From positions 1,724,682-1,788,681 of the forward strand of contig NZ_JACLZF010000001.1 of assembly GCF_014243345.1 (NCBI RefSeq): DNA of 64,000 bases, in the 5' to 3' direction. Each line of letters opens with the position of its first letter. The first letter of the stretch is position 1. The DNA is from Robiginitalea sp. SC105 (GTDB lineage Bacteria > Bacteroidota > Bacteroidia > Flavobacteriales > Flavobacteriaceae). The position numbers and the translations under genes are program-made. The notes beneath the pieces were generated by a model. It did not search any database. It saw only the letters and a list, made by a program, of their open reading frames with translations, and was not told the origin of the DNA. Positions 48,549-64,000 of the stretch are shown here, piece by piece.

Positions 48549-50079
48549 TCTTGAGGAATTGCGCCGCCGGCAGGAAGCCGCCAGGCTTGGAGGCGGGCAG
48601 AAACGCATCGACAAACAGCACGAAAACAAAAAACTGACGGCCCGGGAACGGGTCCGTTACCTGCTGGATGCGGGTTCTTTCGAGGAACTCGGTAGCCTGG
48701 TGACCCACCGCACTACCGATTTTGGCATGGCAGACCAACAGTATTATGGAGACGGGGTCGTAACCGGTTACGGGACCATCGACGGTCGCCTGGTCTATGT
48801 ATTTGCCCAGGATTTCACGGTGTTCGGGGGATCCCTCTCCGAGACACATGCAGAGAAGATCTGCAAGACCATGGACCTGGCCGTAAAGGCGGGTGCCCCG
48901 CTCATAGGCCTGAACGACTCCGGCGGCGCCCGGATACAGGAAGGGGTGCGGTCCCTGGCGGGCTATGCGGACATCTTCTACCGGAATGTCCGGGCTTCGG
49001 GGGTGGTGCCCCAGCTTTCTGCCATTATGGGGCCTTGTGCCGGGGGAGCGGTCTATTCCCCGGCCCTGACCGATTTCATCGTCATGGTGGAACAAACCAG
49101 TTACATGTTCGTCACCGGGCCCAACGTGGTGCGCACCGTAACCAACGAATCTGTGGATTCCGAGGAGCTCGGCGGGGCCAGGGCCCATTCGACCAAATCG
49201 GGGGTCGCCCACCGGACGGCACCCAACGATGCAGCCTGCCTGCAGGACCTGCGCAAACTCCTGTCCTACCTGCCGCAGAACAACCGGGAACAGCCCCCGG
49301 CCGTCCCCTACGAAATGGGATCCGAGTGGCGGGAAGACCTGGGCAACCTCGTACCGGGAAACCCGAACCAGCCCTACGACATGAAGGAAGTGATCCGGGG
49401 TATCGTGGACCCGGATTCCTTTTTTGAGATCCACCCGGATTATGCGGACAACATCCTGACCGGTTTTGCCCGCCTTGCGGGGAGGCCTTTGGGGGTGATT
49501 GCCAACCAGCCGCTCTCACTGGCCGGGGTCCTGGACCGCGACAGTTCCCGGAAGGCGGCACGTTTTACCCGTTTCTGCGATTGTTTCAACATCCCCTTGC
49601 TGGTGCTGGTGGATGTGCCCGGGTTCCTCCCGGGAACCGACCAGGAATGGAACGGGATCATCGTGCACGGGGCCAAGTTGCTCTATGCCCTGAGCGAGGC
49701 CACCGTTCCCCGTATTACGCTGATTACCCGAAAGGCCTACGGAGGGGCCTATGACGTGATGAACTCCAAACACATCGGGGCCGACCTGAACTACGCGTGG
49801 CCCGGGGCCGAAATTGCGGTAATGGGCGCCAAAGGCGCAAGTGAGATTATTTTCCGGAAGGAAATCGCCCGGGCGGAGGATCCCGAAAAGAAACTGGCCG
49901 AAAAGGAGGCGGAATACGCCGAAAAATTTGCCAACCCCTACCGCGCTGCCGGCAGGGGCTTCATCGACGAGGTCATCGAACCCAGGGAAACCCGCAGGAA
50001 GCTCATCCGGGGCTTTGCATCCCTGCAGCACAAAGAGGTGGAGGCCCCCAGGCGCAAGCATGGCAACATTCCCCTTTAG
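48538..50079 (+). CDS. Acyl-CoA (probably propionyl-CoA) carboxylase carboxyltransferase subunit
   Basis: A 513-residue fused alpha/beta-type carboxyltransferase. Acyl-CoA and biotin oxyanion motifs are [28 protein letters not shown] and, in the C-terminal half, [23 protein letters not shown] and [17 protein letters not shown]. The Asp in GGAYDVM corresponds to the residue that favours propionyl-CoA in studied actinobacterial PccB, which supports that substrate. With the mutase genes on the other strand it gives propionyl-CoA to succinyl-CoA. Its stop overlaps the anmK stop on the opposite strand. Confidence 0.94.
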
Positions 50080-51155
50080 CCCCCGGGAAGGTAGATCACC
50101 CCGGAACAGGAATCCCGGCTCGCCCCAGTGACCGAAGCGAGCACATTCACGCCTTCCTGCAGCCTGAGGGCCCCCAGGAGGGCAAAGACCAGGGCCTCCT
50201 TGTTTTCCACCAACCCCCCTTCCGGGACCACCAGACGAATCCCCGGGGCAGTCGCCTCTTCCAGCACTTCCATCAGGTAGGCATTATAGGCCCCACCCCC
50301 CGTGACCAGCACCTTCCCGGGATTTCCCCCGGCTAGTTGATCAATCTGGCGTGCTATTGTCCCCGCAATGTGCCTGACGGCTGTCTGCAGCCGGTTTTCC
50401 GGGGAGTCCGGGGCATCTGCCAGCAGGGGCAGGATGGCATCCCGGAACCACTCGTACCCGGTGGATTTCGGGAACGGCTGATGGTAATAGGGCAGGTTGT
50501 CCAGCGCCCGGAGCAACCCGGGAAGGACGCGGCCTTTCCGCGCCAGGTTCCCCCCGGCGTCGTATGGATGTCCGGCTTCCCGGCTGAGGTGGTTCAGCAG
50601 CATATTGGCTATCCCGATATCAAATGCGGTCCGCTTTCCGTCCCTTTCAAAGGAAATATTGCTGATGCCCCCCAGGTTCAGGCAAAAGTCGAACTCCCCG
50701 AAGAGCAGCCGGTCCCCGATGGGAACCAGGGGTGCCCCCTGCCCGCCCAGGCGGACATCCAGGGAGCGGAAATCCCCGATACAGGTCACCCCGGAATGCA
50801 GGGCGACCTCCTGGGGGCACCCCAGCTGAAAGGTCACACCGCGGTCCGGCCGGTGGTGGATGGTGTGCCCATGGCTGGCCACCGCGTCCACCCTGGTATT
50901 TCGGGTCCGGAGAAACTGCCGTGCGGCCCTGCCCAGCCAGCGACCGTACTCCGTGTGGAACGCGAGCAGGTCTACCGCCCCAAGGCCGATGGCCTGGTGC
51001 AGCCTTTCCCGCATGGGGGCGTCGTAGTCGATGCAATCCGCCTCCAGGATACGGTATTTCCAGGTTTCGCCTGTGTCGGTCAATTCGGCCAGCACCAGGT
51101 CCAGGCCATCCAGGGAGGTCCCGGACATCATGCCCAGTATGCGATAGGTCTTCAT
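50076..51155 (-). CDS. anmK: Anhydro-N-acetylmuramic acid kinase
   Basis: Opens and phosphorylates 1,6-anhydro-MurNAc to MurNAc-6-phosphate in peptidoglycan recycling. The 359-residue ASKHA-fold kinase starts [22 protein letters not shown], has [12 protein letters not shown], the catalytic-region [13 protein letters not shown] and [18 protein letters not shown]. Length matches the family. It is third in the minus operon ampG-like, nagZ-like, anmK, with 16 bp between it and nagZ; its product feeds MurQ at 57070. Confidence 0.96.
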
Positions 51156-51171: not shown

Positions 51172-52785
51172 TCATGGTTTTCGGAGTTTTAGGGTTTTCA
51201 GGGGAATGGGCAATCGGCCGGGGGCGGGTGCATCCCCCTTGAAATAGGCAGCGGCCCGTCCCTGGAACTCCGTCGTGGGCTGATAAGCCAACAGGATCCC
51301 GGCCAGCGGCTCCAGGTTGAAAAGGTCCAGCGCATACGGGTTTCCGAAATGGCAAAGCCAGACTTCCCGGTTTTTGCAGAGTTCCCGGATGGCTTCCAGG
51401 GCAGCAGGGGGCATGCCGAAACTATTGGCGGGCTTCACGCGGGGCGGGGTGAGAGCAAGAAGGACCTTTTTGGTGGCGGGTATCGGGTAACCCGCCTCCC
51501 GGGTATCCGTCCATCCCCAGTGCAAGGGCGGCCTTTTGACAACCCCCTTCAGGCCGTGCAGGAATACCTCCGCCATGTCCCCGGCGCAGACCAGGGTGGT
51601 ATCCCCATCGGAGGCAAAGCGCTCCGGCGGCGCCCCGGTTGCCCTTACGGCAGTCAGGCACCGGGCCGCCAGTTCCTCCCGGAGCCCGGCCGGGCTGAAA
51701 TCCGGTTGGATGGGCCGGGTGTTTTCGGAATATACCCGCTCCTTCAAACCCCAGATTCGCGCGAAGGCCATATCGATCTTGCCCCGGTCGCCTTCCTTGC
51801 AAATGCGCTTATGGGCCAGAGGGATATCTTCCGCAAAGCAAAGCATGTCGTTCCCGGCGGCAAAGGCCCGCCACGCCACTTCACCTAGCTCGGGGAACAT
51901 CTTGCTTACCGCATGCATGTTGAGCGCATCGCTGATCACCGGGCCTTCAAATCCCAGCTTTCCCCTGAGGGTGCCTTGGATGATGGCTGCGGAAAGGCTT
52001 GCCGGCATGCCGGAGGGGTCCAGGGCAGGTACCGAAAGGTGCCCGGTCATTACGGCATCGGCCCCTGCCGCGATCAGCGACCGGAAAGGGGCCAGCTCCA
52101 CCTGGTCCAGGGCTTCGGCGGTTTTGTCGATGACCGGCAGCGCCAGGTGGGAGTCGACCCCCGTATCCCCGTGCCCCGGGAAATGTTTGGCGCATCCCAG
52201 GATGCCACCGTTGCGAAGCCCGCGGAAAAGTTCGGTTGCCCGATGGGCCACGGCCTCGGGATCCGTCCCAAAGGCCCGGTAACCGATTACCGGGTTCGCG
52301 GCATTGTTGTTCACGTCGGCAACGGGCGCCAGGTTCCAGTGGATGCCGGCTTCCCGGCAATCGGCCGCCATCCGGAGGCCGGTCTGGTAAATCAGCGGGT
52401 CCCCCGGTTCCAGTGCCCCCAGGCACAGCGCATAGGGGTAGCCCTCCCCGTTCTCAATCCGCATGGCAAGCCCCCATTCGGCGTCCATGGCGATCAGCAG
52501 TGGGTGGGATGCTGCAGCCTGGTAGCGACGGATCAGGGATTTAAGGTTGCCCAGGCTGTCCGGGTTCTTCGGGATTTCCTTCTCACCTTCAAAATTTGTT
52601 GCGGCGCTGGCCGGGCTGTGGAAAAAGCAAAGGCCGCCGATATGGTAATCCCGGATCAGGCGTTCCAACCGGCCGATGGCTTCCTCCGTATCGTTGATAA
52701 AGGCAGCAGGCATGAACAGTTGTCCCACGCGCTCTTCGAGGGTGGTGCGGTCCTGCATTTGGCTGGATGTAGGGAACTCAGGCAT
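51172..52785 (-). CDS. nagZ: Cytosolic GH3 beta-N-acetylglucosaminidase, NagZ-like
   Basis: A 537-residue GH3 enzyme expected to release GlcNAc from GlcNAc-anhydroMurNAc muropeptides. The TIM barrel (~15-350) has KHFPGHGDTGVDSHLALP (200-217), with the Asp-His acid/base loop typical of NagZ, and the nucleophile D286 in VISDALNM. A C-terminal alpha/beta domain (~370-537) makes it longer than the ~340-residue enterobacterial NagZ. No signal peptide is present, which fits cytosolic recycling. It overlaps the permease gene by 8 bp. Confidence 0.92.
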   Translation of the reverse strand: MPEFPTSSQMQDRTTLEERVGQLFMPAAFINDTEEAIGRLERLIRDYHIGGLCFFHSPASAATNFEGEKEIPKNPDSLGNLKSLIRRYQAAASHPLLIAMDAEWGLAMRIENGEGYPYALCLGALEPGDPLIYQTGLRMAADCREAGIHWNLAPVADVNNNAANPVIGYRAFGTDPEAVAHRATELFRGLRNGGILGCAKHFPGHGDTGVDSHLALPVIDKTAEALDQVELAPFRSLIAAGADAVMTGHLSVPALDPSGMPASLSAAIIQGTLRGKLGFEGPVISDALNMHAVSKMFPELGEVAWRAFAAGNDMLCFAEDIPLAHKRICKEGDRGKIDMAFARIWGLKERVYSENTRPIQPDFSPAGLREELAARCLTAVRATGAPPERFASDGDTTLVCAGDMAEVFLHGLKGVVKRPPLHWGWTDTREAGYPIPATKKVLLALTPPRVKPANSFGMPPAALEAIRELCKNREVWLCHFGNPYALDLFNLEPLAGILLAYQPTTEFQGRAAAYFKGDAPAPGRLPIPLKTLKLRKP

Positions 52786-54043
52786 CGGATGCGGATTTTT
52801 TGCCGTATTCGGCAGGATACCGGATTTTGGAAAGCATCAGCAGGGCCGGCAGGGCGGCGATGACCACCCAGGTAAAAAAACCGCCATACCCCAGCCATTG
52901 CTGCATGTACCCGCTGATCATGCCCGGGAGCATCATGCCGAGCGCCATAAAGCCGGTGGCTATGGCATAATGGGCCGTTTTAAACGGGCCGTCCGCAATA
53001 TAGATGAGGTAGATCAGGAAGGCTGCAAAACCGAACCCGTACCCGAATTGTTCAGCTACCACGGTGCCCACCACTGCCCATGTATGGTCCGATTGGGTGA
53101 GTGCTAGCACGGCATAGAGGATATTGGGCAGGTTCAGGGAGAGGATCATGGGCAGCATCCACCGCCGGAGCCCGTCCCGGGAAATGAGGATCCCCCCCAG
53201 GATGCCCCCGGTAGACAGGCAGATGACCCCGACGGTCCCGTAGATGGTCCCGACTGCCTCCGTGGAATAGGATAGCCCGCCTGCGGACGCGTCGTCGAGC
53301 AGGAAGGGTGCGGCCATCTTGACCAGTTGGGACTCGCCGAGCCGGTAGGTCAGGATAAAGGCCAGAGCCCACCCGATATGCGGCCGGTCGAAGAAACTCC
53401 TGAATATTTTCCAGAAGCCCCCCGGGCCGTCCGGAGCCCGCGGGGTTTCATAGGCAGGTGTGGCGAAATAATTGGACAGGGTCATCAGCAGCATCAGACC
53501 GGCCGTGGCCGTGAGGGTGACGGACCAGGCCCTGGTGTTGTCGCCGTAATAGGTTTCCAGGAAACCGGCCAGGATGACGATCAGCCCCTGGCCGGTAATC
53601 ATGGCCAGGCGGTAGAAGGTACTGCGCATCCCCACGAAAAAACTTTGCTTTTTCTGGCTCAGGGCAATCATGTAATAACCGTCCGAGGCAATATCATTGG
53701 TGGCTGAGGCAAACGCGGCAATCCAGAAACAGGCCAGGGAGGTGATCAGGAACTGGTTGGTGGGCAGGCTGAGGCCGGCAGCCAGCAGGGCAACCGATAT
53801 CAGGAGTTGCATGGAGAGGAACCATTTGCGCTTGGTGCTGCGCAGGTCCACAAAAGGGCTCCAGAGGGGCTTGAGGACCCAGGGGAGGTAGAGCCAGCTC
53901 GTGTAGAGGCCAATGTCGGCATTGCTTACCCCCAGTTGTTTATAGAGTATTACCGATACGGTAACCACCAGCACATAGGGGAGTCCCTGGGTAAAGTACA
54001 GTGTGGGTACCCAGAGCCAGGCCCGTTTATCTTTTGGCGTCAT
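52778..54043 (-). CDS. MFS permease, AmpG-like muropeptide importer
   Basis: A 421-residue polytopic membrane protein of 12 or so helices in the AmpG branch of the major facilitator superfamily. AmpG-like features are WLWVPTLYFTQGLPYVLV at the start, GLYTSWLYLPWVLKPLWSPFVD and ATNDIASDGYYM. AmpG imports GlcNAc-anhydroMurNAc peptides. The direct operon with NagZ and AnmK genes supports that substrate here, though relatives carry other solutes. It follows the nagB terminator, so it likely has its own promoter in the 108-bp gap. Confidence 0.9.
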   Translation of the reverse strand: MTPKDKRAWLWVPTLYFTQGLPYVLVVTVSVILYKQLGVSNADIGLYTSWLYLPWVLKPLWSPFVDLRSTKRKWFLSMQLLISVALLAAGLSLPTNQFLITSLACFWIAAFASATNDIASDGYYMIALSQKKQSFFVGMRSTFYRLAMITGQGLIVILAGFLETYYGDNTRAWSVTLTATAGLMLLMTLSNYFATPAYETPRAPDGPGGFWKIFRSFFDRPHIGWALAFILTYRLGESQLVKMAAPFLLDDASAGGLSYSTEAVGTIYGTVGVICLSTGGILGGILISRDGLRRWMLPMILSLNLPNILYAVLALTQSDHTWAVVGTVVAEQFGYGFGFAAFLIYLIYIADGPFKTAHYAIATGFMALGMMLPGMISGYMQQWLGYGGFFTWVVIAALPALLMLSKIRYPAEYGKKSASDA

Positions 54044-54151: not shown

Positions 54152-56095
54152 TTACAGGAAATGGTAGCGCACAAAGCCTTCCATAGCCTCGTACTCTGCC
54201 ATGCCAAGGGCATTGTATTTCCGGGCGGTCTCCTTGTTCCGCTGTTCGGCCCGCTGCCAGAATTCCCGTTCGTCATTTCCCGGGAACATGGCGCTGTCCT
54301 TCTGGGACTGGTGCTTGAAGATGGCGTTCTTTTTCCGCTCCATGTCCTTGGGGCCGATGGGGACCGCCATTTCCATGTCGGCGATGTCCCATTCCTGCCA
54401 TGCCCCGCGGTAAAGCCATACATAACAGTCTTTCAGCCATTCGGCCCCCTCCTCCTTGAGTCGTTCAAGGGCCTGGAAGATAATCTGCAGGCACACGCGG
54501 TGGGTCCCGTGGGGGTCGGAAAGGTCCCCGGCGGCGAATATCTGGTGGGGTTTTACCTTTTGCAGCAGGTCGTAGGTGATCTGTATGTCCTTTTCGGAGT
54601 GGGGTTTCTTCTTAACCGTTCCCGTCTCGTAAAAAGGCAGGTTCTGGAAGTGGGCATTGGACTCCTTTACCCCGCAGTAGCGGCAGGCTGCCAGGGCTTC
54701 CCCTTTGCGAATCAGTCCCTTGAATTCCTGAATTTCCGGGCTGTCCACAGCCCCGGGTTCCTTGTTGGCAAGGAATTCCCGTACCTCGCGGAATTGTTCC
54801 ATCAGCGCCTTGTTGTCCCGCTGCACGTCCGTGGCAAAATCGAGGAATCGGATCACTTCGTCGTCGAACACGGCAATGTTCCCGGAAGTCTGGTAGGCCA
54901 CATGTACCTCATGCCCCTGGTCGACCAGGCGCAGGAGGGTGCCGCCCATGGAGATCACGTCGTCGTCCGGGTGCGGGCTGAAAATCAGGGAAGTTTTCGG
55001 ATAGGGATCCTTGCGTTCCGGCCGGTTGCTGTCGTCCGCATTGGGCTTGCCTCCCGGCCATCCCGTGATGGTCCGCTGCAGGGCATTGAAAACCCGCAGG
55101 TTGATGTGTTCGGCCGACCCGATTTCCGCCACCAGGTTCCCCATGCCATATTCGTTGTAGTGTTCGTTGGTCAGTTTCAGGATGGCCGTGTCCAGTTTTT
55201 CGGAAAGCCAGAGCACAGCCTTCTTGATAAGGGCGTCATTCCAGTCGCACTCGGAAACCAGCCAGGGCGTATCTGTCCGGCTCAGGGAGGAAGCTGCTGC
55301 CATATCCAGGATGACCTCACAGTTCGGGTGGTGCTGCAGGAAAGTGGCGGGTACCGATTCCCGGACTTTTCCCTCCACAGCCTGCTTGATGATACCGGAC
55401 TTGCCTTCCCCCCAGGCCATCAGAATGATCCGCTTGGCGGCCAGAATGGTGCCGACCCCCATGGTGATTGCCTTGGTGGGGACGTTTTCCAGGCCAAAGA
55501 AGTCGCTGGCCGCGTCCAGGCGGGTAACCCGGTCCAGGCGGACCATCCGCGTAACGCTCTTCAGGGAGGAGCCCGGTTCGTTAAAGCCGATATGGCCCGT
55601 CCGGCCTATGCCGAGTACCTGTATATCCAGGCCTCCGGCCTCGCGGATTTTTTCTTCATAGGCCTTGCAGAAATCCCTCACGTCTTCCTTGTCGAGCCGC
55701 CCGTCGGGTATATGGATGTTTTCTTTTTTGATGTCGATATGGTCGAACAGGTGTTCGTTCATAAACCGGACATAGCTGTGGATGGAATCCGGCTGCATGG
55801 GGAAGTACTCATCCAGGTTGAAGGTGATGACATTCTTGAAGCTCAGGCCTTCTTTCCGGTGGAAATCCACCAGGTAGTCGTACACCTTGGTCGGAGTGGA
55901 GCCGGTGGCCAGTCCGATGACGGCTTTCTTGCCCTGTTTCTGCCGCTGGCGGACCAGCCCGGCGATTTCTAAGGCTACCTGGTAGGAGGCAGTCTCCGAA
56001 TTGTCGTAAATCCGGGTGGGGATCTTTTCGAATTTGCGGGATTCCTCATCCGTGGGGATGACGCCATAGGGAGAGGTAGTTGCGATTTCGGTCAT
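54152..56095 (-). CDS. nagB: Glucosamine-6-phosphate deaminase fused to a PIG-L deacetylase-like domain
   Basis: A 647-residue two-domain protein. The first ~270 residues are NagB-like: GLATGSTPTKVYDYL, FNLDEYF with the proton-abstracting D95, and GIGRTGHIGFNEPGSS with H168 and E173. The position of the ring-opening Asp (D141 in E. coli) is Thr166. The second domain (~365-647) is a PIG-L/LmbE metal-dependent deacetylase: SPHPDDDVISMGG (HPDDD 375-379) and LSDPHGTHRVC. It could couple N-deacetylation and deamination of GlcNAc-6-P. The ATG at 56095 is preferred to a TTG at 56122, which overlaps the promoter. Confidence 0.92.
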   Translation of the reverse strand: MTEIATTSPYGVIPTDEESRKFEKIPTRIYDNSETASYQVALEIAGLVRQRQKQGKKAVIGLATGSTPTKVYDYLVDFHRKEGLSFKNVITFNLDEYFPMQPDSIHSYVRFMNEHLFDHIDIKKENIHIPDGRLDKEDVRDFCKAYEEKIREAGGLDIQVLGIGRTGHIGFNEPGSSLKSVTRMVRLDRVTRLDAASDFFGLENVPTKAITMGVGTILAAKRIILMAWGEGKSGIIKQAVEGKVRESVPATFLQHHPNCEVILDMAAASSLSRTDTPWLVSECDWNDALIKKAVLWLSEKLDTAILKLTNEHYNEYGMGNLVAEIGSAEHINLRVFNALQRTITGWPGGKPNADDSNRPERKDPYPKTSLIFSPHPDDDVISMGGTLLRLVDQGHEVHVAYQTSGNIAVFDDEVIRFLDFATDVQRDNKALMEQFREVREFLANKEPGAVDSPEIQEFKGLIRKGEALAACRYCGVKESNAHFQNLPFYETGTVKKKPHSEKDIQITYDLLQKVKPHQIFAAGDLSDPHGTHRVCLQIIFQALERLKEEGAEWLKDCYVWLYRGAWQEWDIADMEMAVPIGPKDMERKKNAIFKHQSQKDSAMFPGNDEREFWQRAEQRNKETARKYNALGMAEYEAMEGFVRYHFL

Positions 56096-56119
56096 AGTAT
56101 AGCTGTTTGTTTGCTGGGA

Positions 56120-56127
56120 CAAAAATA
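56120..56127 (-). promoter_or_regulatory. -7 box of nagB
   Basis: TATTTTTG on the minus strand matches TAnnTTTG and ends 24 nt before the ATG at 56095. The phased TGCAG repeats begin 18 bp upstream, so a bound regulator would cover the -33 region. Confidence 0.5.
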
Positions 56128-56145
56128 ATAATAAAATTTGATATT

Positions 56146-56182
56146 TGCAGCTTTTTGCAGTTTAGTTTGCAGTAACATGCAA
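56146..56182. promoter_or_regulatory. Four phased TGCA(G/A) repeats, candidate operator for nagB/deoR
   Basis: TGCAG occurs at 56146, 56156 and 56168 and TGCAA at 56178, all in the same orientation, at start-to-start spacings of 10, 12 and 10 bp. Most copies are preceded by TTT (consensus TTTGCAG). A further TGCAA at 56219 is 41 bp on, about four turns. The sites fall between the two divergent -7 boxes. Confidence 0.6.
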
Positions 56183-56237
56183 TATTTAACCTTAAATTAA
56201 ACAGCAACCTCAGAAAACTGCAAGTTCAGGAATTTAC

Positions 56238-56245
56238 TATCTTTG
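56238..56245 (+). promoter_or_regulatory. -7 box of the deoR-murQ operon
   Basis: TATCTTTG matches TAnnTTTG and ends 17 nt before the TTG start at 56263. No TTG lies at the -33 spacing; a TGCAA repeat unit lies there instead. Confidence 0.5.
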
Positions 56246-56262
56246 CCGCAAATCCCTTTAAA

Positions 56263-57012
56263 TTGCTCAAGGAAGAACGACAGCGCATTATCCTCAGTGA
56301 AGTGGACCTGCACAACCGTGTCCAGTTAACGGACATGGCTGATTTGCTGGAGGTTTCCATAGATACCGTGCGTCGGGATGTCAAGGAACTCGATGCGGAG
56401 CAGAAGCTCCGCAAGGTCCACGGAGGGGCAGTATCCCTGGGTTTCATCAGCCCTGCCACCGGCAGTGGCCACACCTATGCGCTGGAAGAGAAACGGGTGA
56501 TTGCCCGGAAAGCGGCCGGATTGCTAAAAGAAGGCTCCGTAATCTTCATCGATGGGGGTACCACTTGCCTGGAGCTGGTCCGGGAGCTGCCTGAGAACCT
56601 GAGTCTGACCTGCTTTACCCTCAGCCTGCCCGTAGCCTTGCAGCTCCTTTCCAAACCCAGGGTGGAGGTGATCCTGATCGGGGGGAAGATTTCCCGTGAA
56701 GCCCAGATTGCCACGGGGGCCAGTGCGATTCACGCCTTATCCGACATCCGGGTCGATTACGGTTTTATCGGTACCGGGTACGTGGATGCCCTGCATGGCC
56801 TTACCGAATTTGACTGGGAAGTCGTTCAGGTCAAAAAATCCGTGATCGAGGCTTCCCGAAAGGCGATCTTACTCTGTATTTCCGAAAAACTCAATTCCCA
56901 GCACCGGTACCGCACCTGCGATATCAGCGCCATCAATACGCTGGTTACGGAACTTCCACCGGAGCACAACCGCCTCAACCCGTTCCGGGAACGGGAAATT
57001 CACCTGTTATAA
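56263..57012 (+). CDS. DeoR-family transcriptional regulator
   Basis: A 249-residue sugar-phosphate-responsive repressor. The N-terminal winged helix is EERQRIILSEVDLHNRVQLTDMADLLEVSIDTVRRDVKELDAE (~4-46), with KVHGGAV after it. The C-terminal effector domain shows IFIDGGTTCLELVREL, VILIGGKISREAQIATG and YGFIGTGYVD. The start appears to be TTG at 56263: no ATG lies upstream in frame before the -7 box, and the next in-frame ATG would cut into the helix-turn-helix. It is divergent from nagB and precedes murQ, so it probably controls amino-sugar recycling genes. Confidence 0.9.
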   Translation: MLKEERQRIILSEVDLHNRVQLTDMADLLEVSIDTVRRDVKELDAEQKLRKVHGGAVSLGFISPATGSGHTYALEEKRVIARKAAGLLKEGSVIFIDGGTTCLELVRELPENLSLTCFTLSLPVALQLLSKPRVEVILIGGKISREAQIATGASAIHALSDIRVDYGFIGTGYVDALHGLTEFDWEVVQVKKSVIEASRKAILLCISEKLNSQHRYRTCDISAINTLVTELPPEHNRLNPFREREIHLL

Positions 57013-57069: not shown

Positions 57070-57888
57070 ATGTCAGATTTTCACAAGATTACCGAGCAGG
57101 CATCCAACCACGACCACCTCGAAAAGCTGGATGCCGCCGCCCTGTTGGAAAAAATCAACCAGGAGGACCGCAAAGTGGCCCCCGCCGTGGCCCGCTGCAT
57201 TCCCGAAATCGCAAGGCTGGTAGCTGCCATGGAGCCGCGTTTTTTGAGCGGGGGCCGGCTGTTCTACATCGGCGCCGGGACCAGCGGGCGCCTCGGGATT
57301 CTCGATGCCTCCGAAATTCCGCCCACCTACGGCATGCCGCACGACCGGGTGATCGGTCTCATCGCCGGGGGAGACCAGGCCATCCGCAAAGCGGTGGAGC
57401 ACGCGGAAGATGACACGGAACAGGCCTGGAAAGACCTGGCCGCCTACGATATCGGGAAACTGGACACCCTGGTGGGGATAGCGGCCTCGGGTACAACGCC
57501 CTATGTACTGGGAGGTATCCGGAAGGCCCGGGAGGAAGGAATCCTGACGGCCGGGATCACGAACAACCCCGGATCCCCCCTGGCGGCAGCCGCCGAGATT
57601 TCCATCGCGGTCGACGTGGGCCCGGAATTTGTCACCGGCAGTACCCGCATGAAAAGCGGCACCTCCCAGAAGCTGGTCCTCAACATGATTTCAACGTCCC
57701 TGATGATCCGTATTGGCAGGGTGAAGGGGAATAAGATGGTCCACATGCAGCTCAGCAACAACAAGCTGATCGACAGGGGGACGCGCTACCTGATGGAAAG
57801 TCTGGACCTGGATTACCAGGCGGCAGGGGCAGCCCTGAAGCGGTATGGCTCCGTGCAGGAGGCATTGCAAAACCTGAAGAAGGATTAG
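57070..57888 (+). CDS. murQ: N-acetylmuramic acid 6-phosphate etherase
   Basis: Cleaves the lactyl ether of MurNAc-6-P to GlcNAc-6-P and D-lactate. The 272-residue SIS-fold protein has the substrate motif GAGTSGRLGILDASEIPPTYG with E82, and the second catalytic glutamate E110 in KAVEHAEDD. Later motifs GSTRMKSGTSQKLVLNMIST and LSNNKLIDRG are family hallmarks. It lies 57 bp after the DeoR-type gene on the same strand. It links AnmK (its substrate source) with NagB (which handles its product). Confidence 0.96.
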   Translation: MSDFHKITEQASNHDHLEKLDAAALLEKINQEDRKVAPAVARCIPEIARLVAAMEPRFLSGGRLFYIGAGTSGRLGILDASEIPPTYGMPHDRVIGLIAGGDQAIRKAVEHAEDDTEQAWKDLAAYDIGKLDTLVGIAASGTTPYVLGGIRKAREEGILTAGITNNPGSPLAAAAEISIAVDVGPEFVTGSTRMKSGTSQKLVLNMISTSLMIRIGRVKGNKMVHMQLSNNKLIDRGTRYLMESLDLDYQAAGAALKRYGSVQEALQNLKKD

Positions 57889-59246: not shown

Positions 59247-62200
59247 ATGCTCCCGAAAAAGAACAGGCATCACTGGTATGCCCTGTTGATGCTAGTGGCC
59301 ACTATCATCAGCTCTTCAGCGATTGCTGGCGGTACTCTGGGAAGCTTTTTGTCCCGTATCGACAGTTCGTTTACCCAAACTGCTTCATCCAAGGAGCAGG
59401 CGGCAGTTCGTCCACAGGATTCCGCGTCTTCCGGAATGGATGTGTTTGCAGCCGCTTCATCCCCGCTCTTTGCTACCATCATCCAGAATGCCGACGAGGA
59501 GGTCACCTGTGCGGACAACGGGTTCACCATAGCGCGGTTCAACCTGTGCGGGGATTTTGACGATCGCATCATCTCGCTGAGCGGTAGTTATGGCAGTTAT
59601 CAATGGCAACAACTGGTACCCGGTGGGAGCTGTACCTTTGATGTGAATGAGGACTGCCCGCCCATTATCGGGAGTGAGTGCAACACCAACTGGCAAACCA
59701 TCGCCAGCTCTTCCACCCTTACCCTGAACGCCGCTTCCATCCCCGCCTCCAGTGGGGCCGAATTCCGCGTGCGCGCCGGGGGAGGGGCCTACTATTACTT
59801 CAAGGTCAAGAAAAGCACCATTACCCAGACCCATGTCAAGCGGGACTATATCTGCGGGGTACCCGGGCGGATACAGATCACGAACCTCTCCAGCGCCTAT
59901 GAATACAGCATCGACAGCGGTACCGGCTTTGGCCCCTGGCAAACCTCGCCCATCTTCGGCAACCTGGACCCGGGGACCTATGTGGTCAAGGCACGCCTGC
60001 AGAATACGCCGAATACCTGCGAATACCCCTATGCACCCATAGTCGTTGAGGAGCAGGAGATCGATATCGACGTGGAATTCACCGATGCCCAGTGTTCCGG
60101 GGAAACCGGGAGCATTACGGTGACCGTCAACGATGTGCCTGGCCCATTCAAGTACACCCTGCTGGATGCCTCCGGGGTCCCCCAGGAGTTCACCACCTTC
60201 ATCCCGAACAACCCCTATACCTTTGCAGCTGTTGGCTTTGGCACCTACAGCGTCCAGGTGGAGACCCAGCAATGCGCCGGCGACCCGGGCAACGGGATCC
60301 CGCCGCCCCGGCAGAGCCTGGATATCAACGGGAACCCCATCGTGATCGGGAACGGCCTGATGGCCCTGAGTGCATCCACGGAGGTAAATGAAAGCCTCAG
60401 TTCAGACCCGGCCTGCGGCGCCAATGATGCGGATATCATCGTCCGGACCTCCGGCGGGGCCGGTCCCTATACCTTTTCCGTCAGCGACGGGGGGAATTCC
60501 GGCGGCTCCTACACGGGGCAAACGACCTATAATGTCACGGCTGCCGGGACGTATGAGTTTTATATTACCGATGCCAACGGTTGTACCATCACGGCGACCG
60601 CCAGCGTGGAAGAGCTGACGCCTCCCGTCGTAACGGCCGCGGGTACGGACGGGGACTGCAACAACGGAGCCCGGATCACCCTGAGTATCGTCGATGCCAA
60701 GGGCTATAACCTGCAATTCCGGGCAGACCCCGGAGACCCCTGGTCCACCAACCCCGTGCTGAGCGTGCCTACCGGGACCTACAACCAGATCCAGGTACAG
60801 TACCAGCAGGCCGCCTTCAGCTGTATCTATACGCTGCCCACCACCATTTCCGTGACCAATGTGGGGGCCATCACAGGCAATGCGGTCAAGATCCAGGACC
60901 GGCTTTGTAACGGAGCCGGCGTGGATGGCGGGATCATCGAATTCCAGGGGCCGTATTCCGGGGGTTCCGGCAGCGGCTACCAGTTCAGTATCGACGGGGT
61001 GAATTTCAGCACCCAGGAGACCTATGCGAATCTTGCGCCGGGAACCTACACGCCCATTATCCGGGATTCCGGGGGGTGCCGCCTGGAGCTTACGGCCATC
61101 ACCATTGCCGACGTGGACCCGCCCACCGACCTGGCCTTCGCCCAGAGTGCCATCAATTGTGCGACCGGGACTTCCGATGTGCAGCTGACGCCCACCAGCA
61201 ATGCCCCTGTCGTCCTCTATGAAGTGATCAGCCCCATCACCCTGAACAATGGGGGGAGCGACACCTTTTCGGGCCTGGCCGTCAACACGGCCTATACCTT
61301 TCGGATCACCGATGCCAACGGGTGTAGCTATACCGAAAGTTTTACACCGGCGGTCATCAGTTCCATCCGGGCCCGCGTCAAATCCGGGGGAGATACCCGG
61401 GTCTGTACCGGGGCCTCGGACGGGACCGGGACCTTCCTGGTAGACGGGTTCACGAACAACTATACCTATAATATCAACGGCGGGCCGGAAAGTGCCCCCC
61501 AGAACGATGCTGAGGTCAACCTGCCACCTTCTGGCGCGGGGACCTATACCATCACCGTTACCGACGCGGATAGCGGATGTTCGGATACGTCCAGCATTAC
61601 GATACAGGAGCCCGCCAGCCCGATCACCCTGACCGGCAGCGTGACCACCATGAGCTGTGCCAACGGCAACACCGGCCGGGTAGTGGCGACTGCCTCTGGC
61701 GGCTGGGGCACCTACCGCTACAGCCTGGAAATGCCGAACGGTTTCGTGAGCGGACCCAAAAGCGGACGGACCTTTGGGAACCTGACCCAGAGCGGGAATT
61801 ATATCCTCAGCGTGGAAGACGCTGAGGGGTGTACGGCCACCTTCAATTTCAGCCTGACAACCATAGATGCGCCGGCTATTGCCCTGGATGCAGGGGCATC
61901 CGATTATTGTTATGTGCCGGGTACCGGGGCCACCCTTGCGGTGACCTCCACGGCCGGGACCGCACCCCTGGGATCCCACCAGTACCGTATCAATGGGGGC
62001 GCCCTCCAGGCCAGCCCGGTATTCAGCGGCCTGAACCCGGGTAACTACACCATCGAGGTAGTGGACGGCAACAATTGTTCGGACGCGGTGACCGCTACCA
62101 TCAACTCCCAGCTTCGGGTCACCACGAGCATTGACGCGGAAATCCCCTGCGGCGGTGCAGACGGCGGCATCCGGGTCCAGGTTACCGGCGGGTACCTGGC

Positions 62201-64000
62201 CGGGGCCGGGCCCAAACAATACGAGGTGAGCATCGACGGGGGTACTTCCTTCGGGGGTGCCGTCCCGCTGACCAGCAACAGCTTTACCTACAACACCAAC
62301 GTGTCCGGGGATTACGTATTCCGGGTAACCGACAACCAGGGCTGCGTGGCAGTATCCACCCCGATTACCCTCAGCCCGCCGGTGAATATCGACCCGGCTA
62401 CGGCCGTGGTAACCCCAGCCAGCTGCGGGGAGACCAACAACGGGATCGTCACGATTACCCCGGATGCCACCAGCGGCATCCCCCCCTATGAAATCAGTTT
62501 TGACGGCGGGGCCTTTGGTTCCCAGTCCGTGTTTTCCAACCTGGTTGCAGGCCAGACCTATACCTTTGTCGTCCGGGATGCCCGGGGCTGTGAAACCATC
62601 CCTGATGACATTACCATCCCCCTCGACGGGACGCCCCCGCCGGATGCCACCGTGGCCCCGATAACCGCAACCTGCGCTGCCGGGACCGTGGAGGGCAGCA
62701 TCCAGGTCACGTCCGTAGCCGGCGGCACCGCCAACTATACGTACATCCTGCAGGACGCCTTTGGCGTGGAACTCGACCGCATCGGCCCGACGGCCAGTAC
62801 TTCCGAAACCTTTGCCAACGTCATCCCGGGAATTTACACCGTGGTGACCATCGATGCCCTGGGCTGCCGGGACGAAGACACAGTTACTGTAGACCAGACC
62901 ACCCTGGATGTGGTCCCGGACCCGGTGCCGGCCCCGACCTGCGATCCGGGCGGTTTTACCAACACCGTGGAGATCGTCGGTGGGGTAGGACCCTTCCTGA
63001 TCCGCCTGGCTACGGACCCGATCCCCCCGGTATCGCCCAACAGCCCGCCGCGGCGCCATACCTTCAGCGGCCTGCAGTTCGGGGTTTCCTACGAGGTAGA
63101 AGTCACCGACCTGGGAACAGGATGCATCTACCTTGATGTAATCGACCCGGTCGACGGCCCCAGCCCCCTGGACGTGACTGCCACGAGCACCCCGGGCTAT
63201 TGCGATGCAAACCGGAACGGGCAGATCCTCTTTGAGGTAATCGGTTTTGCGCCCGGCTCGGACCTGCTCATCGAATTGCTGAATACGGATGACGGCACGC
63301 GGATCACTATCGACAACCCGACCAATGTCAGTCCGACCTATTCCGGTTCGCACGAGACGCTGCCGGGCAACTACCAGGTCATCGTCACCGACCTGACGAA
63401 CGACTGTACGGATGCCACAGCCATCATGATCGACCAGAATACGCCCTCCATCGACATCCTGGCCCAGGAACCGGCCAACTGTAATGCCTTCGGGCAGTTT
63501 ACCGTACAGGGATCCGGCGGGGGAGGCGGCCCGTATACCTTTGCCTTTATGGATGCCGGCGTACCCCCGTCCCCTGGGGATTTCGATACGGCGACCACCT
63601 TTATTGGCCCGGCCGGGAACTACGACATCTATGTGCAGGACGCCACCGGGTGTACCTCTTTTGCGATCGCCCAGATCATCAACCTGGAACCGGACCTGCC
63701 CAGCCCCGCCTTCGTGGTGGAAAACCAGTGCGACAATACGGTGACTTCCTTCGATATCCTGGTGCAGATGCCTTCCAGTGTGGATACGCCCCGCTTTACC
63801 CTGAACGGGGACGAACAGTTCCCGGTCCTCAACGGCGGGTTCTGGGAGCATACCTTTACGGTTGCAACCCCCGGGGATTACACCGTGGACGTAGTGGATG
63901 CCAATGGTTGTACGAGCCAGGGGACGGCTACCGTCTATGAATTCCTGAGCGCCTCCGGCGGGTTCAGTACAGACCCCACCTGCAATGCGCCCGATGGGGA
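59247..64000 (+). CDS. Giant SprB-like repetitive surface protein, 3' end outside window
   Basis: An open frame of 1,584 codons from the ATG at 59247 with no stop before the right edge. A signal peptide (LLMLVATIISSSAIAG, ~14-29) is followed by a Cys-containing N-terminal region to ~190. Then come about 16 diverged modules of ~85 residues, each starting with a Cys a few residues before a glycine-rich strand (for example DPACGANDADIIV) and ending in (V/I)xDxxGC, as in ITDANGCTI and VRDARGCET. This is the SprB-repeat style of type IX-secreted gliding adhesins. A C-terminal sorting domain would lie outside the window. It is divergent from the PQQ-dehydrogenase gene. Confidence 0.88.
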   Translation, partial: MLPKKNRHHWYALLMLVATIISSSAIAGGTLGSFLSRIDSSFTQTASSKEQAAVRPQDSASSGMDVFAAASSPLFATIIQNADEEVTCADNGFTIARFNLCGDFDDRIISLSGSYGSYQWQQLVPGGSCTFDVNEDCPPIIGSECNTNWQTIASSSTLTLNAASIPASSGAEFRVRAGGGAYYYFKVKKSTITQTHVKRDYICGVPGRIQITNLSSAYEYSIDSGTGFGPWQTSPIFGNLDPGTYVVKARLQNTPNTCEYPYAPIVVEEQEIDIDVEFTDAQCSGETGSITVTVNDVPGPFKYTLLDASGVPQEFTTFIPNNPYTFAAVGFGTYSVQVETQQCAGDPGNGIPPPRQSLDINGNPIVIGNGLMALSASTEVNESLSSDPACGANDADIIVRTSGGAGPYTFSVSDGGNSGGSYTGQTTYNVTAAGTYEFYITDANGCTITATASVEELTPPVVTAAGTDGDCNNGARITLSIVDAKGYNLQFRADPGDPWSTNPVLSVPTGTYNQIQVQYQQAAFSCIYTLPTTISVTNVGAITGNAVKIQDRLCNGAGVDGGIIEFQGPYSGGSGSGYQFSIDGVNFSTQETYANLAPGTYTPIIRDSGGCRLELTAITIADVDPPTDLAFAQSAINCATGTSDVQLTPTSNAPVVLYEVISPITLNNGGSDTFSGLAVNTAYTFRITDANGCSYTESFTPAVISSIRARVKSGGDTRVCTGASDGTGTFLVDGFTNNYTYNINGGPESAPQNDAEVNLPPSGAGTYTITVTDADSGCSDTSSITIQEPASPITLTGSVTTMSCANGNTGRVVATASGGWGTYRYSLEMPNGFVSGPKSGRTFGNLTQSGNYILSVEDAEGCTATFNFSLTTIDAPAIALDAGASDYCYVPGTGATLAVTSTAGTAPLGSHQYRINGGALQASPVFSGLNPGNYTIEVVDGNNCSDAVTATINSQLRVTTSIDAEIPCGGADGGIRVQVTGGYLAGAGPKQYEVSIDGGTSFGGAVPLTSNSFTYNTNVSGDYVFRVTDNQGCVAVSTPITLSPPVNIDPATAVVTPASCGETNNGIVTITPDATSGIPPYEISFDGGAFGSQSVFSNLVAGQTYTFVVRDARGCETIPDDITIPLDGTPPPDATVAPITATCAAGTVEGSIQVTSVAGGTANYTYILQDAFGVELDRIGPTASTSETFANVIPGIYTVVTIDALGCRDEDTVTVDQTTLDVVPDPVPAPTCDPGGFTNTVEIVGGVGPFLIRLATDPIPPVSPNSPPRRHTFSGLQFGVSYEVEVTDLGTGCIYLDVIDPVDGPSPLDVTATSTPGYCDANRNGQILFEVIGFAPGSDLLIELLNTDDGTRITIDNPTNVSPTYSGSHETLPGNYQVIVTDLTNDCTDATAIMIDQNTPSIDILAQEPANCNAFGQFTVQGSGGGGGPYTFAFMDAGVPPSPGDFDTATTFIGPAGNYDIYVQDATGCTSFAIAQIINLEPDLPSPAFVVENQCDNTVTSFDILVQMPSSVDTPRFTLNGDEQFPVLNGGFWEHTFTVATPGDYTVDVVDANGCTSQGTATVYEFLSASGGFSTDPTCNAPDG

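Follow-up and report, generated by a model that had tools for sequence, protein, structure and literature searches.

What is the role of the regularly spaced TGCA repeats that lie between two divergently oriented genes of Robiginitalea sp. SC105, and which protein, if any, reads them? The repeats separate a nagB gene from a deoR gene in the window, i.e. the whole stretch of 64,000 nucleotides analysed here. An initial sequence-only reading had proposed that they form a cooperative operator for both nagB and deoR-murQ, as the local amino-sugar-phosphate switch of a type not recognized from described flavobacterial regulators. The features of the locus are collected in Table 1.

Table 1. Genes, promoter boxes and repeat units of the nagB/deoR locus (positions in the window)
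Feature	Position	Strand	Evidence and remarks
nagB fused to PIG-L deacetylase domain	54152-56095	-	NF002557 over cut-off; PF01182 + PF02585
AmpG-like MFS permease	52778-54043	-	TIGR00901 199 bits, under curated cut-off 350
GH3 hydrolase, NagZ-like	51172-52785	-	PF00933; PRK05337 158 bits, under cut-off 207
anmK, anhydro-MurNAc kinase	50076-51155	-	NF007144 over cut-off
deoR, HTH_DeoR + DeoRC sensor domain	56263-57012	+	likely binder; TTG start
murQ	57070-57888	+	NF003915 over cut-off
nagB -7 box	56120-56127	-	plus-strand CAAAAATA, minus-strand TATTTTTG; CAAAnnTA in 82/82 intergenic regions
O1 unit 1, TTTGCAG	56144-56150	+	T, G, C in 81, 80, 80 of 82 regions
O1 unit 2, TTTGCAG	56154-56160	+	T, G, C in 77, 76, 74 of 82 regions
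O1 unit 3, TTTGCAG	56166-56172	+	T, G, C in 80, 81, 81 of 82 regions
O1 unit 4, ATGCAA	56177-56182	+	T, G, C in 76, 77, 79 of 82 regions
O2, two units, opposite orientation	56203-56224	-	position profile, placement, spacing; proximal TGCA 56219-56222
deoR -7 box TATCTTTG	56238-56245	+	TAnnTTTG within last 75 bp in 79/82 regions

The genes encoded in the vicinity, for an AmpG-like permease, a NagZ-like GH3 hydrolase, AnmK, MurQ and NagB, point to peptidoglycan-sugar recycling rather than to general amino sugars, which narrows the amino-sugar switch first proposed. From the roles of these families, we take the locus to import muropeptide sugars and to convert them to fructose-6-P. Because the window's genome has no NagA match over the cut-off (best score 30.7 bits vs 225.65), the PIG-L domain fused to NagB may perform GlcNAc-6-P deacetylation. 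The gene order nagB(-)/deoR(+)/murQ(+) is common to all 80 relatives fetched (the best 80 of 168). In 60 of these 80 loci, relatives of both ampG and nagZ follow nagB, and neither is found beside nagB in 9 of the 71 uncut loci; anmK is present in 12/80, and elsewhere it possibly lies past the end of the fetched DNA. The TTG start of the window's deoR, at 56263, corresponds to M at that position in 80/80 fetched relatives.

In the window, four TGCA cores begin at 56146, 56156, 56168 and 56178 between the divergent -7 boxes, with the 10-, 12- and 10-bp spacing initially described. Three of the units read TTTGCAG, and the fourth is ATGCAA. A further core at 56219, 41 bp on, had been regarded as a fifth unit; it is present, but it is in the opposite orientation (CTGCAAG) and is part of a separate conserved site before deoR. 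We call this second site O2 and the four-unit array O1. Four TGCA motifs starting within 40 bp were found at O1 only across the 64-kb window, and chains of four (A/T)TGC units in steps of 10-12 bp arose in 2 of 20,000 dinucleotide shuffles of the 92-nt stretch beside the nagB box. We also searched the genome for similar arrays, as the sequence-only reading had suggested. Counted from the -7 box, 70 regions have all four units, and 48 of these, that of the window included, were used to build R1, an array model of 46 positions. In the 3.58-Mb genome, R1 identified a single strong site, O1, with 40.9 bits, no other position exceeding 13.6 bits. A simpler array pattern yielded five matches in the genome, two of them inside the array, and its reversed control yielded none.

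The comparison with relatives included 82 intergenic regions, namely those of the window, of the 80 loci (best 80 of 168) and of L090; L098, whose sequence is the same as that of L020, was left out. Absence of the repeats from relatives that keep the same gene pair had been named as an observation that would speak against the proposed operator, and we found them to be conserved, with the exact 10-12-10 array of TGC cores in 74/82 regions. Scanning of the 300 bp upstream of deoR gave a fit to 10-12-10 spacing in 73/81 cases, the runner-up among 252 spacing schemes fitting 2/81, and single-base shuffles yielded no 10-12-10 array. The position of the array is similarly constrained. Measured from where the nagB -7 box starts, its first unit lies at 25-27 bp in 74/77 regions and approximately one turn nearer, at 16-17 bp, in the remaining three. 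On the same scale, TGC cores over the 82 regions peak at 26, 36, 48 and 58 bp (62, 58, 61 and 58 counts, respectively), each peak having 13-16 more counts at the next base. With the register allowed to vary within 3 bp for the best fit to TGC, the core columns reach 1.45-1.9 bits, adjacent variable positions are at 0.17-0.57, and T-rich columns between them are intermediate. The columns between O1 and O2 are mostly at 0.1-0.8 bit.

Five of the eight regions devoid of the exact array (L023, L029, L041, L073 and L077) retain three of the four cores in place, and the others are off by one base in the middle step, which is 13 bp in L053 and 11 bp in L087 and L088. L083 carries the entire array, with unchanged spacing, on the opposite strand, and R1 gives 30.6 bits on one strand of the genome G002 and 29.9 bits on the other, indicating that same-strand polarity is not essential. 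O1 is also kept beside two forms of nagB, which are 79-88% or 55-58% identical to that of the window; the latter form is found in many Flagellimonas, Maribacter and related loci (L021, L028, L030, L032, L035, L040, L042, L048-L050 and others). The operator has stayed constant while the nagB gene was exchanged or diverged.

On the deoR side, the relatives share AAAACnGnAAAAAACGGCA before the deoR -7 box, which corresponds to two units 10 bp apart in reversed orientation relative to O1. The proximal unit of O2 is in place before this box in 58/79 regions, vs 0.16 expected from single-base shuffling, and it is located 17-21 bp before the box in 72/74. The distal unit is looser, with 36/79 regions matching a simple pattern for which no shuffle control was run, and it is degenerate in the window. 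We generated a profile for O2 from 61 of the 82 regions. In three loci of the clade that includes Muriicola jejuensis (L061, L070 and L078), a deoR -7-like motif, a relaxed match in L070, is present 13 bp behind the last O1 unit, and the O1-O2 distance is still 41 bp. With a promoter box just behind O1, O2 would therefore fall in the 5' UTR.

For a strict scoring of the distance between O1 and O2, each site served as its own anchor, O1 through its cores and O2 through its profile, and 77 of the 82 regions passed. In all 77, the two sites are spaced by whole helical turns, at 40 (1 region), 41 (34), 42 (15), 51 (16), 52 (9) or 74 bp (2), and the same distance classes were obtained in 70/70 regions when O2 was placed by the -7 box. 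In the regions that failed (L017, L020, L053, L087 and L088), the O2 profile gave 51, 52, 51, 55 and 29 bp, and a looser rule 41, 42, 51, 40 and 41 bp, respectively. Some assignments depend on the anchor of the array: L011 and L086 are at 32 and 31 bp if the array is anchored on the nagB box and in the 41-bp class if it is anchored on its own cores, and L024 is accordingly at 41 bp or in the 51-52-bp class. On a quick DeoR tree, the spacing classes need 9 changes; for the 52-bp class, a minimum of 3 is required even if only the starred branches are considered. The phase concentration is 0.886-0.945 for periods of 9.5-11.5 bp, with the period itself not sharply fixed. As a control, itself somewhat clustered, the spacing of the deoR -7 box and the start codon (15-60 bp) has a phase concentration of 0.51, compared with 0.945 for the O1-O2 distance at 10.5 bp. 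Duplication of a unit might likewise produce steps of 10 bp, but subsequent single-base drift would be expected to populate the intermediate distances, and we therefore read the whole-turn spacing as a sign of selection on helical phase.

We then considered the putative binder of these sites. The deoR product matches PF08220 with 46.7 bits (gathering score 21) and PF00455 with 147.2 bits (gathering score 31.8), which makes it a member of the DeoR family. It exceeds the curated cut-off of none of the named equivalogs of this family (GlpR, AgaR, SrlR, UlaR, YgbI and DeoR), with scores of 150.9 vs 300 for the best GlpR_Halo match, 101.7 vs 260 for AgaR and 87.4 vs 244 for UlaR. It is 76-86% identical to its Robiginitalea counterparts, 92% to that of one other genome of the genus, and at E <= 0.001 its only match in its own genome is itself. 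In its HTH domain, V31, S32, D34, T35 and R37 to D44 are identical in 81/81 orthologs, and positions 33 and 36 vary; in the DeoR family, this stretch corresponds to the recognition helix.

Array and regulator occur together. Among 296 genomes of the same order, 8 harbour the regulator at >=57% identity, orthology being assigned by identity only. R1 yielded five matches of at least 30 bits in the 296 genomes, all directly upstream of a deoR ortholog, and the next best match beside these five has 23.5 bits. For the 3/8 ortholog genomes without a 30-bit match, we found 19.5 bits at the same place in G280 and a degenerate array with 2 of the 4 units in G210; by direct count, G142 has an exact array that was missed by the R1 search. 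The array search of the 296 genomes used stricter filters. At E <= 0.01, 108/296 genomes have a match, and weak matches are therefore common in these AT-rich genomes and mean little. Across 10 genomes of the genus, the top R1 match always precedes deoR, with at least 30 bits in nine of them and 26.5 bits in G009. The search for further regulon members in these 10 genomes gave at best 20.5 bits elsewhere, R1 being a model that two-unit O2-like sites escape.

To include more distant regulators, we took the top 40 among the 62 matches listed (the window's own aside), corresponding to 7 orthologs and 33 distant homologs (30-52% identity). Upstream of the 33, (A/T)TGCA pairs 10 bp apart were found 17 times vs 0.02 expected, although these occurrences are not independent, because many of the homologs come from one genus. 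The full 10-12-10 array is present upstream of 0/33 of these homologs, and three cores in five cases. Loci of this kind, with distant DeoR-family regulators and upstream (A/T)TGCA repeats approximately 10 bp apart, include L149 and L153-L156. A whole clade of DeoR-family regulators of these bacteria thus probably uses this half-site. On the basis of these genomic comparisons, the repeats are a real, well conserved control site, very probably bound by the adjacent sugar-sensing DeoR-type regulator.

We consider it highly likely that O1 is the main operator of this DeoR-family protein and O2 a second one, and that cooperative binding to them represses both halves of the locus until a sugar phosphate appears. 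The cooperative operator first proposed for nagB and deoR-murQ is thus strongly supported by the conservation of the repeats, their placement at both promoters, the whole-turn spacing and the co-occurrence with deoR. The four half-sites of O1 would cover the approximate -33 region of the nagB promoter and the sequence upstream, and the two reversed half-sites of O2 the approximate -33 region of the regulator's own promoter. Without inducer, several regulator subunits would bind at both sites along a single face of the helix, touch one another and block both promoters. Upon uptake of cell-wall fragments, GlcN-6-P, GlcNAc-6-P or MurNAc-6-P would bind the sensor domain and release the block, and nagB-ampG-nagZ-anmK and deoR-murQ would therefore be expressed together. 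In this scheme, we infer binding by the DeoR protein, repression rather than activation, a multimer or a loop, co-transcription on the nagB side and the inducer.

The same operator and the same protein might instead activate both promoters when the sugar phosphate is bound, in keeping with the fact that O1 and O2 precede the -7 boxes in most regions and that both promoters lack a TTTG -33 element (0/79 for deoR and 0/82 for nagB). However, TTTG at -33 is also rare in other promoters of these loci (2/39, a baseline too small for a decision), and TTG is present there in 4/79 deoR, 4/82 nagB and 4/39 baseline promoters. Moreover, in the three loci of the Muriicola jejuensis clade, the motif taken for the deoR -7 box precedes the proximal O2 unit, and an activator bound downstream of this box would be of no help. 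DeoR-family regulators are mostly repressors, as generally known and as indicated by the excerpts of studies of Caldicellulosiruptor (PMC8579813) and E. coli (PMC12632272). We thus regard activation as unlikely.

It is very unlikely that another, global regulator binds the array and that deoR is a mere neighbour. The motif alone does not name its binder, but all five strong matches in the 296 genomes adjoin deoR orthologs, the genus-wide searches placed the top match before deoR each time, with at most 20.5 bits elsewhere, and distant DeoR homologs share the half-site at 10 bp. That the array is no protein site, but a set of TTTGC echoes of the -7 box or AT-rich low complexity alike by ancestry only, is hardly credible. 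TTTGC does resemble the end of TAnnTTTGC and the region is AT-rich; this reading is nevertheless contradicted by the contrast between the core columns and those between the sites, by the exact 10-12-10 spacing and by O1-O2 length shifts of only ~10 or 22 bp. An RNA element, such as a riboswitch or a leader structure, would suit a 5' intergenic region of metabolic genes, but O1 is upstream of both -7 boxes and therefore outside both predicted transcripts, and a search of Rfam at 55900-56500 revealed no family at its gathering score (one match with 19 bits vs 70, E 0.064), making this explanation extremely improbable.

The chances seem evenly balanced that the regulator forms on the six half-sites, four in O1 and two in O2, one phased complex bridging the two divergent promoters. 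Such a complex would accommodate whole helical turns being gained or lost, but no fractions of a turn, so that marine flavobacteria would have repeated the classic helical-phasing experiment, and the deoR promoter of one small clade would apparently have moved with O1-O2 kept at 41 bp. The whole-turn O1-O2 spacing represents a natural data set on cooperative DNA binding. More generally, marine Flavobacteriaceae are predicted to have a switch devoted to the recycling of peptidoglycan sugars, in which the operator is defined and the DNA-reading helix almost invariant. E. coli fills this role with an unrelated regulator, MurR of the RpiR family (murQP), a local regulator of MurNAc-6-P catabolism next to murQ; a DeoR-type protein takes that place here.

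Direct-repeat half-sites or several operators are known for IolR, AgaR and LacR of the DeoR family and for E. coli DeoR, which forms loops, all in other pathways. The sites predicted for RhaR, a DeoR-family regulator of a sugar pathway, are each a pair of imperfect direct repeats with a period of 10-11 bp, as reported in the excerpts of PMC3870299. Similar direct repeats near the targets are found here, with a middle step of 12 bp however, and in addition there are four of them (10-12-10) and a reversed pair, phase-locked, in another pathway; the likeness is one of layout. The suggestion that the repeats represent an unrecognized type thus does not hold, as DeoR-family sites with 10-11 bp direct repeats had been described (PMC3870299, in part). 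For each of the 12 factors of the LacI and DeoR families in Caldicellulosiruptor, sites are predicted within 5' UTRs or across promoter elements, and the authors take these 12 factors as repressors (excerpts of PMC8579813). AxgR of Caldicellulosiruptor is, like the regulator described here, a local DeoR-family protein whose conserved tandem-repeat site occupies the intergenic region separating its gene from the target operon; its pathway is different, and no second phased site is mentioned for it in those excerpts. DeoR and CggR of Bacillus subtilis act as tetramers on left and right half-operators, with a sugar-operon operator of 39-45 bp, but they belong to the SorC family and bind palindromes with direct repeats, unlike the HTH_DeoR + DeoRC protein of the window (excerpts of PMC11229326).

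The general kind of operator has thus been described, as DeoR-family direct-repeat operators (PMC3870299) and as the tandem-repeat site of a local DeoR-family regulator (PMC8579813), both as far as the excerpts go. None of the open-licence PMC papers surveyed deals with this operator or regulator, and as far as these papers go, its 4+2 layout, phased by whole turns, and its set of targets seem new; the excerpts of PMC12632272, PMC3750489 and PMC7670621 contain no operator of this type. The genes deoR, murQ, nagB and ampG were reported together in a symbiont polysaccharide-utilisation locus, with no operator analysis in the excerpts of that paper (PMC10199937). Of note, further along the window, positions 60402-63851 harbour a minus-strand ORF of 1149 residues that has an odd composition and might be the shadow of a repetitive opposite-strand gene.
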